Positions 3,217 to 36,354 of a stretch of DNA of 36,468 bases are shown here, one piece after another. Under the pieces are notes generated by a model. It had not been told where the DNA came from. It worked only from the letters and a program-made list of their open reading frames with translations, and ran no database searches. Numbering within the stretch: the stretch's first letter is position 1; each line of letters opens with the position of its first letter. Source of the stretch: Rhodanobacter sp. (lineage in GTDB: Bacteria; Pseudomonadota; Gammaproteobacteria; Xanthomonadales; Rhodanobacteraceae); contig DZCM01000013.1 in assembly GCA_022730295.1 (NCBI GenBank), positions 1-36,468 on the forward strand, read 5' to 3'. A program made the position numbers and the translations under genes.

Positions 3217-3665
3217 TGGCACCGGACGCGGTCGAAATTTTCACGGATGGCGCGTGCCTCGGCAATCCTGGGCCGGGTGGCTGGGCCGCGCTGCTGCGTT
3301 GGCGCGGCATCGACAAGTTGCTGTCTGGCGGCGAGCAAGCCACCACCAACAATCGGATGGAATTGATGGCGGCGATCATGGCACTGGAGTCGCTGAAGCG
3401 CGATTGCGAGGTGCACCTGACCACCGACTCGCAGTATGTTCGCCAAGGTATCGAGCAATGGGTGGCGAAGTGGCGCGCCAATGGCTGGCGCACCGCGGAC
3501 AAGCAGCCCGTGAAGAATCAGGATTTGTGGCAGCGCCTGGCCGCGGCGGCGGAGCGGCATCGGGTGCGCTGGGCGTGGGTCAAGGGGCATTCCGGGCATC
3601 CGGAGAACGCACGGGTCGACAGCGCCGCGCGCGCCGCGGCCGTTGCGCTGCAAGGAGCGAATTGA
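3213..3665 (+). CDS. rnhA: Ribonuclease HI
   Basis: This 150-residue enzyme degrades the RNA strand of RNA-DNA hybrids. The four acidic active-site residues are visible: Asp12 (FTDGAC), Glu50 (NNRMEL), Asp72 (TTDSQY) and Asp136 (ENARVD). The [11 protein letters not shown] segment supplies the conserved His near the metal site. The start ATG overlaps the preceding methyltransferase-like gene (ATGA). The stop overlaps the dnaQ start (TGATG). rnhA next to dnaQ is the conserved gammaproteobacterial arrangement, although in E. coli the two are divergent and here they are co-directional. Confidence 0.96.
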
Positions 3666-5664: not shown

Positions 5665-6498
5665 TCAACAACATCCCAGTTTCTGACCGACGCGCACAGT
5701 TCGTTCAGGAACGAGTGATGGATCGAGGCTCCCGGCCGGGAACAGCACGATCACCGTGGAGCCCATCTCGAAACGCCCCATTTCCGCGCCCTGGGCCAGC
5801 TTGATGCGCCGGTCGCGCCAGTCGCGGCGGCGGATCGTGCGCGCGTACGGCGGGATTTCGGGACCGCTCCACACCGTCGTGACGCCCGAAACCAGCATCG
5901 CACCCACCATCGCGAGCACGAACGGGCCGTGTTCGTCCTGGAAGTGGCACACCAGCCGCTCGTTGCGGGCGAACAGGCGCGGAATTTCCGCGACCGGTGT
6001 GGGGGCGACGCTGAACAGGCGTCCCGGCACGTGCACGGTTTCAATGAGCTCCCCGGCCAGCGGCATGTGCACGCGGTGGTAATCGCGCGGTGACAGGTAA
6101 AGGGTGGCGAAAATCCCATCCCGATAAGTCGCCGCAGCCGCTTCGTCGGCCAGCAGTTCGGCAACGGAATAGGTGCGACCCTTGGCCTGCACGATCCGGC
6201 CCTCGGTGATTCGCCCGGCCTGGCTGACGCGTCCGTCGGCCGGGCAGGTGATGGCTCCGGCAGCGCCGTCCAGTGGCCGCGCGCCTGCGTGCAACGCGCG
6301 GGTGAAGAAGGCATTGAAGCTCGGATAGGCGTGCGGATCCGGTTGCGCAGCTTCGCTCATGTCGACTCGGTACGCGCGAACTATGCGTCGGATCAGGAAA
6401 TCCTTCCACGGGCGCCATGTCCAACGCGTGGCGGCACGCACGATGCGGCTCAAGGTCTTCTGGGGGACGATGTTCTGGACAAGCATGGAAACGTGCAT
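5665..6498 (-). CDS. psd: Phosphatidylserine decarboxylase proenzyme
   Basis: This 277-residue membrane-associated enzyme makes phosphatidylethanolamine from phosphatidylserine. It is a self-cleaving pyruvoyl enzyme: the GST site at residues 246-248 (EMGSTVIVLFP) is where the chain splits and Ser247 becomes the pyruvoyl group. The protease-like residues are visible: Asp88 in CPADGRV and the His of SPRDYHRVHMP (about 141-144). YPSFNAFFTRAL is a family hallmark. The open frame extends far upstream antisense to prmB, but similarity starts at MHVSMLVQN; ATG 6486 is a second possible start. It is divergent from prmB with about 70 bases between. Confidence 0.95.
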   Translation of the reverse strand: MHVSMLVQNIVPQKTLSRIVRAATRWTWRPWKDFLIRRIVRAYRVDMSEAAQPDPHAYPSFNAFFTRALHAGARPLDGAAGAITCPADGRVSQAGRITEGRIVQAKGRTYSVAELLADEAAAATYRDGIFATLYLSPRDYHRVHMPLAGELIETVHVPGRLFSVAPTPVAEIPRLFARNERLVCHFQDEHGPFVLAMVGAMLVSGVTTVWSGPEIPPYARTIRRRDWRDRRIKLAQGAEMGRFEMGSTVIVLFPAGSLDPSLVPERTVRVGQKLGCC

Positions 6499-8082: not shown

Positions 8083-9186
8083 GTGGCGTCCAACACCTTC
8101 GGCAAGCTGTTCAGCGTCACCACTTTCGGCGAATCGCACGGGCCGGCGATCGGTTGCGTGATCGATGGTTGCCCGCCCGGCATCGCCATCGCGCCAGAGG
8201 ATTTCGTGCACGATCTTGCGCGCCGCGCCACCGGAAAATCGCGCTATACCTCGCAGCGGCACGAGGCTGACGAGGTTGAAATGCTTTCAGGTGTCTACCA
8301 AGGCACGACAACGGGAACCCCTATCGCGCTGCTGATCCGCAACACCGACGCGCGTTCGAAGGACTACGCGTCGGTCGTGGATACCTTCCGCCCGGGACAC
8401 GCCGACTATACCTACTGGCAGAAATACGGGATCCGCGATCCACGCGGCGGCGGGCGCGCCTCGGCGCGCGAAACCGCGATGCGGGTTGCCGCGGCGGTGC
8501 TTGCGAAGAAGTGGCTGCAACAGCGGTTCGGCGTCGCGGTGCACGGTTGGTTGGCGCAAATGCACGACATCGTGCCCGATTTGCCGGCCGGCGCCGAAAT
8601 CGACTTCGGTGTAGTGGAGTCCAACCCCTTCTTCTGGCCGGTCGCCGCCGAAGTGCCCGAGCTGGAGGCCCGCATCAATGCCCTGCGCAAGGCCGGCGAT
8701 TCCTGCGGCGCGCGTGTCAACGTGGTTGCATGCGGGGTGCCGCCCGGCTGGGGTGAGCCGGTCTACGGCAAGCTGGATGGTGAGTTGGCGGCCGCGCTGA
8801 TGTCGATCAATGCCGTGAAGGGGGTCGAGATCGGGGCCGGCTTCGGCTGTGTCGCCCAGCACGGCGCGCAGCATCGCGATGAAATGCATTTGGACGGCTT
8901 TACGTCCAACTATGCCGGCGGTATCCTTGGCGGAATTTCCAGCGGCCAGGATATCCTCGCCTCGATCGCGTTGAAGCCGGCATCCAGCATCCCGACGCCC
9001 GGCCGCAGCGTGAACCTCACAGGCGAAGAAGTGGAAGTGCGCACCACGGGCCGGCACGACCCTTGCGTGGGCATCCGCGCGGTCCCGATCGCGGAGGCGA
9101 TGGTGGCCTTGGTGCTGATGGACCAGGCCATGCGGCATCGGGCGCAGTGCGGCGATGTCGGTGAAGTGAGTCCGCGGATTGCCTGA
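8083..9186 (+). CDS. aroC: Chorismate synthase
   Basis: A 367-residue FMN-dependent enzyme of the shikimate pathway, converting 5-enolpyruvylshikimate-3-phosphate to chorismate, the precursor of aromatic amino acids and folate. The signature [18 protein letters not shown] is near the N-terminus, followed by [19 protein letters not shown] and [15 protein letters not shown]. The GTG at 8083 is chosen because it yields [18 protein letters not shown], the family's usual start; a TTG at 8074 would add three residues. It ends in a gap carrying an inverted repeat before asd. Confidence 0.95.
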
Positions 9187-25961: not shown

Positions 25962-27632
25962 ATGAATGCCCCCACCCGCATCGACACCGCCCGCGTGATC
26001 CATCCGCCGCGCGGCACCGGGCTCAGTTGCAAGAACTGGCTGATCGAGGCGCCGTACCGGATGCTTCAGCACAATCTCGATCCCGAGGTGGCGGAGAATC
26101 CTGCGGAACTGGTGGTATACGGCGGCATCGGTCGCGCCGCGCGCAACTGGGAATGCTTCGACGCCATCCTGAAATCCTTGCGCGAATTGAATCCGGACGA
26201 AACCCTTCTCGTACAGTCCGGCAAGCCGGTCGGTGTATTCAAGACCCACGAAGATGCACCACGCGTGCTGATCGCCAATTCCAACTTGGTGCCGCACTGG
26301 GCGACGTGGGAGCACTTCAACGAGCTGGACAAGAAAGGCTTGATGATGTTCGGCCAGATGACAGCCGGCTCGTGGATCTACATCGGCTCGCAGGGCATCG
26401 TGCAGGGCACCTACGAAACTTTCGTCGAGATGGGCCGGCAAAGTTACGGCGGTAGTCTCAAAGGCCGGTGGATTCTGACCGCCGGCCTCGGCGGCATGGG
26501 TGGCGCGCAGCCGCTGGCGGCATCGCTCGCGGGTGCGTGTTCGCTCAACATCGAATGCCAGCAGTCGCGCATCGACTTCCGTTTGAAGACCGGTTACGTC
26601 GACGAGCAGGCCAGGGATCTCGATGACGCATTGGCGCGTATCGAAACATGCACCAAGGCTGGTGAAGCCAAATCCATCGCGCTGCTCGGAAATGCCGCCG
26701 AGGTGTTGCCTGAGCTGGTGCGCCGCGGCGTGAAGCCGGACGCGGTGACCGATCAGACTTCCGCGCACGATCCGGTCAATGGCTATCTGCCGCAGGGCTG
26801 GACGGTCGAGCAGTGGTTCGAGCGCCGCCAGAGCGATCCGGATGGCACGCGCGATGCGGCCAAACAATCCATGAAGGTGCATGTGGATGCGATGCTAGCG
26901 TTCCACGCGCAAGGCATTCCGACCTTCGATTACGGCAACAACATCCGCCAGATGGCGTTCGACGTTGGTTGCAAGGATGCGTTTGCGTTCCCCGGTTTCG
27001 TGCCGGCCTACGTGCGCCCGCTGTTCTGTCGAGGTATCGGTCCGTTCCGCTGGGTCGCGCTGTCCGGCGATCCCGAAGACATTTTGAAAACGGATGCGAA
27101 GGTCAAGGAGCTGATCCCCGGCGATGCGCACTTGCACAACTGGCTGGACATGGCCGAGCAGCGCATCCATTGGCAGGGCCTGCCCTCGCGCATCTGCTGG
27201 GTCGGATTGGGTCTGCGCGACAAGTTGGGATTGGCGTTCAACGCGATGGTGCGCAGTGGTGAATTGAAAGGCCCGATTGCGATCGGCCGCGATCATCTGG
27301 ATTCCGGCTCGGTCGCCTCACCCAATCGCGAAACCGAATCCATGCGCGATGGCTCCGACGCCGTCAGCGACTGGCCGATCCTGAACGCCTTGTTGAACAC
27401 CGCCAGTGGCGCGACTTGGGTTAGCTTCCACCACGGCGGCGGCGTCGGCATGGGCTACTCGCAGCATGCCGGATTGGTGATCGTGTGCGATGGCACGCCA
27501 GAAGCGGACAAGCGCATCGCCCGCGTGCTGTGGAACGACCCCGGCACCGGCGTGATGCGCCACGCCGACGCGGGCTATCCCGATGCCATCGCCTGCGCGA
27601 AGGAAAAAGGCCTGAAGCTGCCGATGGTGTGA
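25962..27632 (+). CDS. hutU: Urocanate hydratase
   Basis: A 556-residue NAD-dependent enzyme converting urocanate to 4-imidazolone-5-propionate, the second step of histidine catabolism and the substrate-producer for HutI. The NAD-binding [12 protein letters not shown] is near 170; the active-site Cys356 lies in [20 protein letters not shown]; the late motif [15 protein letters not shown] is intact. GGAG lies about ten bases upstream of the ATG. The C-terminus departs slightly from the common consensus ([17 protein letters not shown] rather than GYDIAI/GYEIAI). A second, displaced copy of the last 63 codons lies 3.2 kb downstream. Confidence 0.97.
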
Positions 27633-27783
27633 TCGCATTGGTGCTGCGTCATGGAAAATCGGGTGCGTTGTGTGAGTGCGCGGCAGAAGAGCGCCGCAAA
27701 GCCAATGTATGGGAAAGCCGCCGCATGGTTCGGTCCAGCTTCTTGAGTGGGAGGCAGGACGCCAAGGAAAATCTGATACAATG

Positions 27784-27805
27784 ACCATAACGACATACCA
27801 TAACG
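27784..27805 (+). promoter_or_regulatory. Direct-repeat operator candidate upstream of the RHH antitoxin
   Basis: ACCATAACG occurs at 27784-27792 and again at 27797-27805, a 13-base period, immediately after a TACAAT (27777-27782) that could be the -10 box. Ribbon-helix-helix antitoxins usually repress their own promoter by binding such repeats. Confidence 0.45.
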
Positions 27806-27814
27806 GCATCTGCA

Positions 27815-28096
27815 ATGCCTCGCATGTCCATCCGCGCAACCTATGCACTCGATGAACAGACCGATCGACGCATCCGCCGCCTTGCGGCCACATGGCGCGT
27901 GTCGCAGGCAGAGGTGATTCGCCGCTCCGTGAAAGCTGCCACCGAGCAGGCCGACGAAACGCTGACGCCAGCGCAGGTGGTCGCGCATTACGCCAAAGCT
28001 CGGCCGCTCCGCACCCGCGAGGCAACTGGCCGTGCGATCCGCGCCCTGCGCAATTTGCGCCACGCCGACGATCACCATCGATCCAGTGTCAAGTGA
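27815..28096 (+). CDS. Ribbon-helix-helix antitoxin of a VapBC-like pair
   Basis: A 93-residue protein. The N-terminal RATYALDEQTDRRIRRLA plus WRVSQAEVIRRSVKAA is a ribbon-helix-helix DNA-binding fold. The C-terminal half, rich in Arg and Thr (ARPLRTREATGRAIRALRN), would bind and neutralise the toxin. It may start at 27815 or at the ATG at 27824. The stop overlaps the GTG of the toxin (GTGA), typical of toxin-antitoxin operons. It is the first gene of the accessory segment after hutU. Confidence 0.82.
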   Translation: MPRMSIRATYALDEQTDRRIRRLAATWRVSQAEVIRRSVKAATEQADETLTPAQVVAHYAKARPLRTREATGRAIRALRNLRHADDHHRSSVK

Positions 28097-28476
28097 TCCA
28101 CTTCGACACCAACGCGCTGATTGCATTGCCGCAGTGGGCGCGCCGGGGCCAGGCTGTGGTCAAGCGCGTGGCGCGCGGGGAAGCTGCAGCGGCGTGTGCG
28201 CTGGTCTGGTACGAGTTTCTGTTGGGGCCGCTCGCGGACGGCGAGGCCGATTTGGCGCACGCTTTCCTCAGTGGCAGGATCGAACCGGTCGGCGCGGAGG
28301 ATGCAGCGCTTGCGGCAAAATTGTTCAACGCCGCGGGACGCCGACGCACGCTGAAGACCGATGCGCTGATTGCAGCGCTGGCCATTCGCGCAGAAGCCGA
28401 TTTCGTCACCATCAATGTGACCGATTTCGAGCCGTTCATTCCACACGGCCTGCGGCTGGTACCAGCCGAACTGTGA
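28093..28476 (+). CDS. PIN-domain ribonuclease toxin (VapC-like)
   Basis: A 127-residue PIN-domain protein. The four conserved acidic residues are Asp5 (HFDTNALI), Glu41 (WYEFLLGP), Asp90 (KTDALIAALAI) and Asp111 (NVTDFEPF). These coordinate the metal ion for RNA cleavage in VapC toxins; the RNA target cannot be predicted. The start is a GTG overlapping the antitoxin stop. The length and all four acidic residues look intact, so it may be active. Confidence 0.85.
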   Translation: MIHFDTNALIALPQWARRGQAVVKRVARGEAAAACALVWYEFLLGPLADGEADLAHAFLSGRIEPVGAEDAALAAKLFNAAGRRRTLKTDALIAALAIRAEADFVTINVTDFEPFIPHGLRLVPAEL

Positions 28477-28521
28477 CGCCTCGTTGTATCGAAGGGGGCG
28501 TGGCTGCATGGAAGGGCCTTT

Positions 28522-28644
28522 ATGCTCAATGAGAAACTGAAAAAGCGCATGGTGCGGGATCGCCCCGTCACCAGCATTACCCTGCGCTGTTGCCGCCGAT
28601 CGAAAATTGACCCATTTTTGAAGGTTCTGCCGATCCAAATTTGA
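28522..28644 (+). pseudogene. Truncated CopG/RHH-like antitoxin start
   Basis: A 40-codon frame with a good AAGGG six bases upstream. The first 22 residues (MLNEKLKKRMVRDRPVTSIT) resemble the start of CopG-type RHH antitoxins (DRPxTSITLR). After LR the frame runs into the IS-like repeat at 28588 and ends as CCRRSKIDPFLKVLPIQI, which is not family sequence. The gene looks cut by an insertion; the rest is missing. The assignment rests on a short match. Confidence 0.4.
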
Positions 28645-28647
28645 CCC
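28588..28647 (+). repeat. Remnant end of an IS21-like insertion sequence
   Basis: The block starts TGTTGCCG and contains two imperfect copies of an 18-base unit, CCGATCGAAAATTGACCC (28596-28613) and CCGATCCAAATTTGACCC (28630-28647), 16 of 18 identical with a 34-base period. Multiple terminal repeats containing AAATTGACCC next to a TG end are typical of IS21-family elements. No istA/istB frames and no opposite end are visible, so only a fragment remains. Confidence 0.45.
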
Positions 28648-28671
28648 GGGTGTTCAACCTAACCTGGCAGC

Positions 28672-28743
28672 GTGTTGCTGGAACGCATTGCGGCCGAACG
28701 CGCGCAGCGCGAGCGCGTCGCGGCCACGGGCCAAAAGGGGTGA
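28672..28743 (+). pseudogene. Relic of the C-terminal end of a type I restriction specificity subunit (hsdS)
   Basis: The 23-residue stretch VLLERIAAERAQRERVAATG ending in a stop matches the usual C-terminal tail of HsdS proteins (ASVLLERIRAERA). An in-frame stop lies three codons before it, so nothing upstream survives in frame. The identification is from a short but distinctive match. Confidence 0.4.
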
Positions 28744-28783
28744 AAGGGAATGATGCCCGTGGCGCGGTGGCTCAGCAGATCTT

Positions 28784-28930
28784 TTCCTTCTCCCTCCGGG
28801 AGAAGGAAGCGCGTAGCGCCGGATGAGGGTACGAACACGCGAATGGCTGGATTGTCAGTAGATTGTCGCCGCCAGGCAAGTGCGTACCCTCACCCGCCCC
28901 TTCGGGGCACCCTCTCCCGGAGGCAGAGGG
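28784..28930. repeat. Inverted pair of REP-like hairpins (REPIN-like)
   Basis: The left unit is a perfect 11-pair stem TTCCTTCTCCC/GGGAGAAGGAA (28784-28794 with 28798-28808, loop TCC), a small GCGC-GTA-GCGC hairpin and TGAGGGTACG (28824-28833). The right unit is CGTACCCTCA (28883-28892), exactly complementary to that, then a CCCC-TT-CGGGG-type hairpin and CCCTCT/AGAGGG (28910-28930). Opposed REP units of this kind are common between genes in Xanthomonadaceae and are moved by RAYT transposases; no RAYT gene is in the window. Confidence 0.65.
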
Positions 28931-28947
28931 AAGCGGCGGCCTGCCCC

Positions 28948-29241
28948 TTACGCGGCGCGCGGACGAATGTGCGTCAATGAGTTGCCGAGTTCGCGGCGCG
29001 CGGTTTCCAGTTCGTAATGCTGCTGCAGGTTCACCCAGCTCTGCGCATCGGTACCGAAATAACGCGCAAGGCGCAATGCCGTGTCGGCGCTGATGCCGCG
29101 GCGTTCGCGCACGATGTCGTTGACGCGGGCGGGCGTGACGCCGATGGCGTTGGCCAGCGCGGTGCTGGACAGGCCGAGCGGCAGCATGAACTCCTCGCGG
29201 AGGACCTCGCCGGGATGGATCGGGGGAAGTTTTTGGGTCAT
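28948..29241 (-). CDS. higA: HigA-type antitoxin (HTH, XRE family)
   Basis: A 97-residue helix-turn-helix protein. LPPIHPGEVLREEFMLPLGL is the family start, LANAIGVTPARVNDIVRERR the HTH and ISADTALRLARYFGTDAQSW the following helix, all typical of the HigA antitoxin. AGGAGT precedes the ATG at 29241. It follows higB by ten bases on the minus strand, the reversed toxin-first order that defines higBA. It should bind the palindrome at 29540-29560 to repress the pair. Confidence 0.92.
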   Translation of the reverse strand: MTQKLPPIHPGEVLREEFMLPLGLSSTALANAIGVTPARVNDIVRERRGISADTALRLARYFGTDAQSWVNLQQHYELETARRELGNSLTHIRPRAA

Positions 29242-29251
29242 GCCGGACTCC

Positions 29252-29530
29252 TCAATGGTAATCAACGATTTCGACATCCAGCGCATCGCCCTGTTGCCAG
29301 CGGAAACACACGCGGAACTGATCGTTGATGCGGATGCTGTGCTGGCCGCTGCGATCGCCTTTCAGGGCTTCCAGCCGGTTGCCGGGCGGGACGCGCAAAA
29401 AGTCGAGCGTGGCGGCCGCGTTGAGCTGCACCAGTTTGCGTCGCGCCACTGCTTCAATGTTGACGAACCTTCGCACGCGGCTGCCGTTGAACAGCGCTTC
29501 GGTGTCCTTGTCCGCGAAGGTCTTGATCAT
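29252..29530 (-). CDS. higB: HigB-type toxin (RelE/ParE superfamily mRNA interferase)
   Basis: A 92-residue protein beginning MIKTFADKDTEALFNGSRV, with RKLVQLNAAATLDFLRVPPG, NRLEALKGDRSGQHSIRIND and QFRVCFRW, a standard HigB/GraT sequence. HigB toxins cleave mRNA on translating ribosomes. The open frame continues upstream in-frame through the operator, but the family start is the ATG at 29530. The length and key C-terminal Arg/Trp segment are intact. Confidence 0.92.
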   Translation of the reverse strand: MIKTFADKDTEALFNGSRVRRFVNIEAVARRKLVQLNAAATLDFLRVPPGNRLEALKGDRSGQHSIRINDQFRVCFRWQQGDALDVEIVDYH

Positions 29531-29539
29531 GCATGTATC

Positions 29540-29560
29540 GTATATCGGTAAGCGATATAC
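29540..29560 (-). promoter_or_regulatory. higBA operator palindrome
   Basis: GTATATCG (29540-29547), spacer GTAAG, CGATATAC (29553-29560): a perfect 8-base inverted repeat ten bases upstream of the higB start. It overlaps AT-rich -10-like sequence (TATACG on the minus strand), the expected place for HigA autorepression. Confidence 0.8.
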
Positions 29561-29599
29561 TGCAAACCCGGCATCACCACTCGAATGGAATATTGATCC

Positions 29600-29719
29600 A
29601 TGATGGATGTATCGCAAATCGGCAAACGCGCCTGGAGCTACGCGGGCGTGCTGCGCCGGGCGGGGTTCACGTTCGAAGTGGACGGGTCAGCCATAATGGC
29701 CGTCCATTTTTGCGGTTAG
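29600..29719 (+). pseudogene. Relic of the N-terminus of a type I restriction methylase (hsdM)
   Basis: A 39-codon frame whose first part, MDVSQIGKRAWSYAGVLRRA, matches the start of HsdM subunits (typically QRAWNYAHVLRDAG). After RRAG similarity ends and the frame reads through the region upstream of the RIO kinase to a TAG. There is no ribosome-binding site. With the hsdS scrap 0.9 kb away on the same strand it suggests a decayed type I restriction-modification locus. Confidence 0.45.
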
Positions 29720-29734
29720 CGAGTTTTCCCAAGC

Positions 29735-30592
29735 ATGATCCCCCCAGCCGGCCTGCAGACGCTGATTGACGACGGCGTGATCGACGAGGTCCTGCGCCCG
29801 CTGAAAAGCGGCAAGGAGGCGTCGGTCTATGTCGTGCGCGCGGGCGACGCGGTGCGTTGTGCCAAGGTCTACAAGGACATGGCCCAGCGCAGCTTCCAGC
29901 AGCGCGCCCAGTATCAGGAAGGCCGCAGGGTGCGTGGCAGCCGTCAGGCGCGCGCCATGGGCAAGGCCAGCAAGTTCGGGCGCAGGGAAGCCGAGGCCGC
30001 CTGGAAAAATGCCGAGGTGGATGCGCTGTATCAGTTGGTGGGCGCCGGCGTGCGGGTGCCGCAGCCGTACGGTTATTTCGGTGGCGTGCTGGTGATGGAG
30101 CTGGTTACCGATGCCGACGGCCATCCGGCGCCGCAGCTCGGCAAGGTGGAGCTGTCGGCGCAGACGGCTCACGAATACCATCGAGTTCTGGTCCGCCAGA
30201 TTGCGTGCATGTTGTGCGAGGGACTGATCCACGGCGACCTGTCCGAATACAACGTGCTGGTGGCGCCCGATGGCCCGGTCATCATCGATTTGCCGCAGGT
30301 GGTCAGCGCCGCGGGCAACAATGCTGCGCGCACCATGTTGCGGCGGGACGTGGGCAACATCACGATCACGCTGTCGCGGTTCGTACCGGAACTGCTCGAT
30401 ACCCATTACGCCGAGGAAATGTGGGCGCTGTTTGAGCGGGGCAAACTGCGGCCGGACAGCGAACTGACCGGCCACTTCGTGTTCGACGAGGGCGAGGTGG
30501 ACGTCGACAGCGTGATGCAATCAATCATCGATGCGCGCGAAGAAGCCATCATTCGCCAGCAGGGGCGCGAGCTGGCGCAGGCAGAGGGTTGA
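29735..30592 (+). CDS. RIO1-family serine protein kinase
   Basis: A 285-residue atypical kinase. [20 protein letters not shown] and GKEASVYVV form the nucleotide-binding start, Lys44 (CAKVYKD) the ATP lysine, [12 protein letters not shown] (Asp168, Asn173) the catalytic loop and IIDLPQVV (Asp185) the metal-binding loop, where RIO kinases have DFPQ. The [20 protein letters not shown] insert is typical of bacterial RIO1 proteins. Eukaryotic RIO1 acts in 40S ribosome maturation; bacterial roles are poorly known. All catalytic residues are present. It ends 13 bases before the displaced hutU fragment. Confidence 0.92.
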
Positions 30593-30605
30593 GGCTGGCG
30601 CTGTT

Positions 30606-30797
30606 GGCGTCGGCATGGGTTACCCGCAGCACGCCGGACTCGTGATTGTCTGCGACAGCAGCAAGGAAGCCGACGCCCGCATCACCCGCGTGCTCTGGAA
30701 CTACCCTGCTACCGGCGTGATGCGCCACGCCGATGCTGGCTACGACATCGCCATCGAGTGCGCGAAGGAAAAAGGCCTGAAGCTGCCGATGGTGTGA
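30606..30797 (+). pseudogene. Displaced 3' end of a second hutU (last 63 codons and stop)
   Basis: The frame reads [20 protein letters not shown] and on to KGLKLPMV-stop, aligning without gaps to the C-terminus of the intact HutU at 27441-27632: 52 of 63 residues are identical. The last 39 bases, including the stop, are identical in both (27594-27632 and 30759-30797). Similarity begins abruptly at GGCGTCGGCATGGG, 14 bases after the RIO kinase stop, and no upstream hutU sequence remains. It carries the commoner family form [17 protein letters not shown], so it may be the older, native end. It has no start signal and is surely not a working enzyme. Confidence 0.9.
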
Positions 30798-35823: not shown

Positions 35824-36354
35824 TCACCGCACCAGCCACGCGTCGATGGTGGATTTGGGTAGCGGGAAGTAACCGTTGGTGATCGCCGGTGCCGTGGCGG
35901 ACGGGTCTACCTCAAGGTGGACGTGCCAGTGGCCTGTCAATTTGATCTGGAAGCAGTCGTCGATCTCGTGCAAATCGTCCTTGTGGACGGATTCCATGCC
36001 TTGCAACAGCGTGCGCTTGGCGCTTGCCTTGGCGGCAGTCCTGTTCGGCGCGCCAAAGAAACCCCATGCGTGGCGTTCGCCGAATTCACCTGCGCGGTAG
36101 CCACCGATGTTGATGAAATACAGATGCAAGCCATTGTCCGGTGGCGTCCGCGACACCTTCACGCGGTAGCCGTCGACACTGTCGAGGAAGCACCAAGCAT
36201 CTACGTGCAGGCCGTGCGGGTCGCCGAACCAGCTCGCGAGCAGTTGTTCGTGTACCGCTTCGAGTGAATCGCCCACCGCGAAGGCGACATCGTGCAATTC
36301 GGTTCGTGCGCGAGGTGCGGTGCCACCGAGCACGCAGGCGATCAATCGGGTCAT
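35824..36354 (-). CDS. DUF1543 domain-containing protein
   Basis: A 176-residue soluble protein. RLIACVLGGTAPRARTELHD with VAFAVGDSLEAVHEQLLASW, then DSVDGYRVKVS, HLYFINIGGYRAGEFGE and HAWGFFGAPNRTAAKASAKR match DUF1543 proteins, a small family without assigned function. The Gly/Tyr-rich FINIGGYRAGEF segment is the most conserved part. The C-terminal ITNGYFPLPKSTIDAWLVR looks complete. Confidence 0.82.
   Translation of the reverse strand: MTRLIACVLGGTAPRARTELHDVAFAVGDSLEAVHEQLLASWFGDPHGLHVDAWCFLDSVDGYRVKVSRTPPDNGLHLYFINIGGYRAGEFGERHAWGFFGAPNRTAAKASAKRTLLQGMESVHKDDLHEIDDCFQIKLTGHWHVHLEVDPSATAPAITNGYFPLPKSTIDAWLVR

Follow-up and report, generated by a model that had tools for sequence, protein, structure and literature searches.

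Integrase-bearing genomic islands sit in the 3′ ends of protein-coding genes such as guaA and prfC, and hotspots of gene exchange adjoin conserved core genes. An arrangement that shares features with both was analyzed behind hutU, the gene for urocanate hydratase, in a stretch of 36,468 nucleotides (nt) from a Rhodanobacter genome of the Rhodanobacteraceae (assembly GCA_022730295.1, contig DZCM01000013.1; the whole stretch is called the window), in which a displaced partial copy of the hutU 3′ end lies downstream of the intact gene. As in the guaA and prfC islands, hutU is intact and the displaced 3′ end marks the far border; unlike these islands, hutU has no nearby tyrosine integrase in the eight genomes searched and no fixed left border, and the scars lie 0.3–3.4 kb and once 13 kb from the gene (in G200; G numbers denote the genomes of relatives and L numbers hutU loci). 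As at core-gene hotspots, a variable accessory interval follows the conserved gene (among 30 loci with 5 kb of sequence to either side, the adjoining 1.5 kb had a partner at another locus upstream in 24 but downstream in 6), but the insertions behind hutU leave readable tail scars. No literature on hutU as an insertion site was found in the search listings of open-licence PubMed Central.

In Escherichia coli, according to one study (PMC3240628), a re-circularised plasmid with trimmed ends enters the chromosome by a single crossover; the duplication product accounted for 56 out of 60 clones, and the lacZ-end duplications of 14 sequenced clones measured 109–950 bp. The hutU loci resemble this Campbell-type insertion in that a duplicated gene 3′ end of variable length (26–514 nt here) flanks the insert, and differ from it in that the events are natural, recur at one gene across genera and have accessory modules as the insert. 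The simplest reading of the data is that small accessory modules were repeatedly inserted directly behind hutU in this family by ordinary recombination between gene tails, without a dedicated integrase, leaving a copy of the tail as a scar. The parts of hutU in the window on which this reading builds are as follows.

25962–27632, + strand: hutU (urocanate hydratase), intact open reading frame of 556 amino acids, with full-length matches in relatives of up to 94%
27441–27632, + strand: 3′ portion of hutU with a second copy downstream, from the alignment with the fragment
27594–27632, + strand: last 39 nt, the same in hutU and the fragment, with the AAGGAAAAAGGCCTG motif; likely crossover tract
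30606–30797, + strand: displaced hutU 3′ end, 63 codons and the stop codon; scar, apparently of a mosaic allele, from the alignment and site patterns

The two ends align without gaps, 158 out of 192 nucleotides and 52 out of 63 residues being identical, and show no difference over the final 39 nt including the stop codon. Beyond 27441/30606 on the left and the stop codon on the right, identity is no higher than expected by chance, so that both borders are abrupt, and the duplicated end that was reported in an initial annotation of the window is borne out. The differences fall on 9 first, 7 second, and 18 third codon positions. The fragment, in which the first ∼493 codons of hutU are missing, has CDG to CDS and WND to WNY changes at residues that are constant across 33 relatives (among the matches listed), which identifies it as a remnant; a GYSQ to GYPQ change affects a site at which one of these relatives has GYAQ. 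The AAGGAAAAAGGCCTG motif within the shared 39 nt was present in none of 153 other hutU ends compared. The source assembly is fragmented and incomplete (110 contigs, 81.6% complete).

A scan of 233 genomes of the family with the hutU C-terminus identified, among the matches listed, 19 relatives besides the window's own genome with more than one match, and a re-search with the whole protein traced these partly to an additional hutU or a hutU divided between contigs and partly to tail copies. Merging of loci with identical last 300 nt reduced 246 hutU loci to 204, of which 202 were tested; some near-identical species may nevertheless be represented by two loci, and closer relatives are overrepresented because coordinates were taken from the best matches listed. 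Within 10 kb downstream, 12 of the 202 loci contained a same-strand partial copy of hutU and 11 of these 12 held the 3′ end (an internal 43-nt match in L246, at −289 to −246, was excluded from the 3′-end count), and two weak matches to inner parts of hutU were found on the opposite strand. The weakest scars that were counted are those of L208 (49 nt, 84%) and L116 (80 nt, 74%). Among the loci with at least 82% protein identity and at least 2.5 kb of downstream sequence, 11 out of 135 carried a same-strand 3′-end copy, all within the family of the window, compared with 7 out of 576 other open reading frames in loci at ≥80% identity (Fisher's test, P = 7.6e-5). These controls are the longest open frames of 170 loci, chosen by a mechanical rule, so that some of them are not genes; two of the seven control repeats (L234 and L235) are long, of low identity and probably paralogs, and on inspection the other five resemble antisense frames, ends of IS200-like transposases or dispersed repeats of the AACCTGACCCC type. 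No tail copy was found at 47 more distant hutU loci, and upstream controls were likewise negative for the hutU 5′ part (0/34) and the hutU 3′ part (0/35).

A 30-mer of the hutU end was also searched with up to three mismatches in 45 Rhodanobacter genomes, 34 of which matched and 11 of which did not, so that hutU tails of other spelling would escape. Every site was hutU itself, a same-strand copy downstream of it (G200, 13 kb downstream; G211; G220, twice) or located on a contig of G213 without hutU, and the reversed pattern gave no match in the same genomes. The 11 scar loci include the isolates Dyella lipolytica, Dyella flagellata, and Rhodanobacter sp. C05, which shows that the scars are not merely an artefact of metagenome assembly. 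In G201, the contig ends 32 nt past hutU and a second hutU tail opens another contig, and in G209 hutU is split over contigs. The contig of Rhodanobacter sp. C05 also stops a short distance past a hutU tail. Overall, hutU tails are very probably recurrent recombination junctions in this family.

The two ends of the scars behave differently. The right ends lie no more than 42 nt from the end of the stop codon, and no more than 7 nt in 7 of the 11 loci, whereas the left ends lie at −28, −71, −84, −87, −91, −94, −99, −179, −192, −206, and −514 nt. Borders are sharp where scars are well kept (26 nt at 100% in G214, 67 nt at 98.5% in G104, and 514 nt at 93% in G211). The G220 locus (L102) contains two successive copies of the hutU tail, at +1480 and +2366, the second of which also starts at −71.

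The DNA behind the scar was found directly after an intact hutU elsewhere at 4 of 13 loci checked (G214, G213, G104, and G052). In G214 (Rhodanobacter FW106-10_bin.24), the DNA past the 26-nt scar is colinear from its second base with the DNA right after the stop codon of intact hutU in L264 (87%), L276 (87%), and L262 (91%), and in G104 a small gene pair behind the scar (Phd-RelE-like by eye) stands at similar spacing after intact hutU in L037, L096, L041, and L268. The empty site that had been predicted for the window thus exists at sister loci. Conversely, the inserted module itself is located directly after hutU in other species at 4 of 11 loci (the window with G014, G214, G016, and G052). 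Modules that belong to the hutU sites of different species can therefore stack in one genome with a hutU tail between them.

The origin of the scar allele was addressed by site patterns, since a tree test was uninformative. From its body to its end the hutU of the window resembles that of genus mates, with no breakpoint at −192, and it ends with GYP[DE]AI like all 10 genus mates with a comparable end (out of 15), none of which has the GYDIAI of the fragment. Two statements of the initial annotation are therefore not supported: the data give no sign that the end of hutU was replaced from 27441 onwards, and within the genus it is the displaced copy rather than the intact gene that has the rarer ending. 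The genus majority agrees with the window's own hutU at 21 of the 34 differing sites and with the fragment at 12, one being tied. Between −166 and −122 the fragment shares the genus state at most of the differing sites, while its DIAI codons near −54 to −50 are unlike all 10 genus ends, and judged from these patterns it is a different, mosaic allele. Its nearest relative over the 192 nt is G014, tied with L212 (G259), and G014 also carries the matching toxin–antitoxin module of the window. Of the 39 mismatches of the G211 copy, 25 fall on third codon positions; only 6 of its 169 residues are changed and its frame is open, which is the pattern of a once-functional allele. Signs of an allelic origin, rather than a self copy, are thus seen in two of the three longest copies (the window and G211).

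A variable left end, a right end where homology stops and a scar whose left part is of a different allele fit a single crossover with circular DNA, to which we assign a probability of roughly 55% for the window. The 3′ end of hutU would serve as the recombination anchor, several species of the family holding a module that begins no more than ∼200 bases from the stop codon. DNA of a relative, consisting of a hutU tail and a module (a toxin–antitoxin pair or another accessory gene), would circularise with a junction at a variable point of the tail, and the circle would enter by one homologous crossover between the two hutU tails, presumably with RecA. The product would be an intact hutU with the donor's tail end, the new module, a partial hutU and the former module, in this order, the partial copy beginning abruptly at the circle junction and ending at the stop codon. 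The segment 27633–30605 may have arrived in this way, with a crossover somewhere in the last ∼39–53 nt of hutU. Repeats of the AACCTGACCCC or GCCACGTCCCC type were noted by eye at or near the left ends of the scars in G211 (L101 ∼6400–6450), G214 (L118 ∼3590–3630), and G213 (L332 ∼8930–8975), which hints at dispersed repeats as the source of the circle junction. Uptake of DNA by the organism of the window is possible given that ComEC is present in its genome, a weak pointer since this protein family also matches in E. coli.

Several observations weigh against this scenario. A number of scars are short and decayed, so that donor and recipient copies are indistinguishable, and 4 of the 13 copies, that of G211 included (92.8% vs. 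91.4% for the next), are closest to the hutU of their own genome, as would equally be expected of a self copy. A tree of the last 189 nt does not reject the fragment and its own hutU as sisters (approximately unbiased test, P = 0.91; the quick search was unstable). The empty sites are also uneven: the G104 pair lies 0.8–2.5 kb from hutU in the other four of its eight partners (among the matches listed), the match behind the G052 scar reaches 70% at one locus with a 64-nt shift, and for the window no relative yielded an empty site, the 1.2 kb past 30797 matching nothing behind any hutU compared. Finally, the stretches read from five relatives (G001, G002, G007, G009, and G037) contain the RIO-type kinase gene of the inserted segment but no hutU fragment, and in two of these relatives the kinase gene lies near a DUF1543 gene, so that some of the segment may predate the event or have moved by another route.

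A first rival is site-specific integration, in which the hutU 3′ end acts as attB for a recombinase that works in trans or has since been lost and the element brings a replacement tail, as do the guaA and prfC elements that the initial annotation had named in one of its models. In its favor, the scars run to the stop codon or close to it, the tail of hutU is restored and the displaced end lies downstream on the same strand. The left ends, however, scatter even among well-kept scars (−28 at 100%, −71 at 98.5%, −514 at 93%), the inserts examined carry one to few cargo genes (the 13-kb G200 insert holds more), and no match to PF00589 was found closer than 60 kb to hutU on the hutU contig of eight genomes, where among the 52 matches listed the nearest one on a contig with hutU is ∼65 kb away (G220); serine recombinases were not searched. 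Without a nearby tyrosine integrase match and a fixed left border, classical site-specific integration is unlikely. What persists of the earlier proposal is the insertion behind hutU with a displaced 3′ end, which recurs in the family; the integrase, the replaced end and the RIO kinase as tied cargo are not supported.

Homology-facilitated illegitimate recombination of linear DNA, with an anchor in hutU and an illegitimate joint in the recipient tail, would leave the recipient's own sequence as the scar. It accounts for variable left ends and additive insertion, is a known process in competent bacteria (PMC3240628), and gains from the four copies that match their own hutU best. The left part of the scar should then be host hutU, but the window copy has another allele there, as the G211 copy also seems to have, and in the E. 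coli study (PMC3240628) 4 out of 60 clones apparently arose in this way, against 56 single-crossover duplications; we regard this route as improbable. A partial tandem duplication at the locus, or a second full-length hutU that has decayed, would agree with the same four copies and with the 67-nt G104 copy, which is closest to its own hutU (66/67), but is a poor candidate given that 11 of 12 copy loci hold the 3′ end with an abrupt left end and other genes between, that most other copies are matched as well or better by another species, that the site pattern of the window suggests a scar allele from another lineage, and that no tandem full-length pair was found on one contig in the 19 re-searched genomes (some carry an additional hutU at a different place or on a different contig). 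Chance similarity is ruled out by the alignment and by the recurrence relative to controls.

The accessory genes between the two hutU ends of the window and beyond them are listed below.

27815–28096, + strand: small open reading frame before the PIN gene, likely antitoxin from its position (no Pfam match)
28093–28476, + strand: PIN-domain toxin gene with a probable GTG start (PF01850 in the frame 27892–28476)
28784–28932, no strand: dispersed inverted (REP-like) repeat, from own-genome matches
28948–29286, − strand: helix-turn-helix (HigA-like) antitoxin (PF01381)
29252–29617, − strand: HigB-like toxin (PF05015)
29735–30592, + strand: RIO-type kinase (PF01163), patchy in the family from its distribution
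35824–36354, − strand: DUF1543 gene, likely right border of the variable interval, from matches in relatives

The segment 27770–28474, with the small open reading frame and the PIN gene, is located directly after hutU in the genus mate G014 (86%). The repeat at 28784–28932 has ∼30 matches in its own genome among those listed, on both strands and some of them at the same site. Most genus mates match the window upstream of hutU, but only G014, G012, and G008 do so downstream. The DUF1543 gene lies ∼1.2–1.3 kb 3′ of hutU in G012 and G008 and 1.6 kb 3′ of it in G027, which belongs to another genus, and the distance from the RIO kinase to DUF1543 is 1.1–1.8 kb in G001 and G002. On this pattern of matches, hutU and DUF1543 seem to border one variable interval. 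In a denser set of 132 hutU loci with at least 3 kb downstream, 82 have a downstream partner, indicating that downstream modules are common to some species.

The RIO kinase was thought to be possibly core, but is patchy, being present in 40 out of 100 relatives (one by a weak partial match) and in 36 out of 95 good assemblies. This distribution and the five scar-free relatives described above rule it out as obligate cargo linked to the scar; the occurrence next to hutU without a duplicated end that had been named as evidence against insertion was thereby partly encountered. The RIO kinase of the window shows 88% DNA identity to that of G037, from another genus, compared with ∼82% for the hutU genes of the pair, a contrast that suggests recent exchange of the kinase.

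The inserts examined at other loci contain one to few cargo genes, apart from the G200 insert. Insert genes that were tested encode a PIN toxin-type protein (G104), an MvdD-type ATP-grasp protein (G211), an ATPase-Toprim component (G200), and a beta-hydroxylase (G116), and the G236 insert encodes a KAP-type NTPase that resembles a PADLOC candidate; an Xre-type antitoxin gene lies behind the G116 scar. In G104 (Dokdonella), a gene of 871 amino acids (L106:4918–7533) runs in frame into the scar at its end, and as a homolog (51%) ends near the same place, the hutU tail represents an in-frame fusion onto the gene end. This gene has neither a Pfam nor a PADLOC match, and is one of three insert genes without a Pfam match. 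By eye it contains an NPPF methylase-like motif, and it is matched in 2 out of 229 genomes of the class. In Rhodanobacter sp. C05 (L101:4086–5412), a repetitive small peptide gene (by eye) and an MvdD-type ATP-grasp gene form a graspetide-like pair between the two hutU ends. A similar gene-tail scar involving a mobile gene was noted by eye in L285, where the 3′ end of a probable IS200-like transposase gene is duplicated around a Phd-RelE-like pair.

A doubtful extension of the single-crossover scenario is that modules with a short hutU tail (26–500 nt) act as recombinase-free cassettes, with the tail as portable homology and the newest module stacked next to hutU, which would make hutU a family-wide docking site for toxin–antitoxin, defence, and peptide-maturation modules. 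Without needing an integrase of their own, accessory modules may pile up at a single chromosomal site, and the readable scars at hutU could serve to reconstruct single events, donors, and the order of arrival. If a resident toxin–antitoxin pair punishes its own deletion, insertions that keep the pair would be favored, which would help to explain why such pairs are found at the borders of conserved genes.

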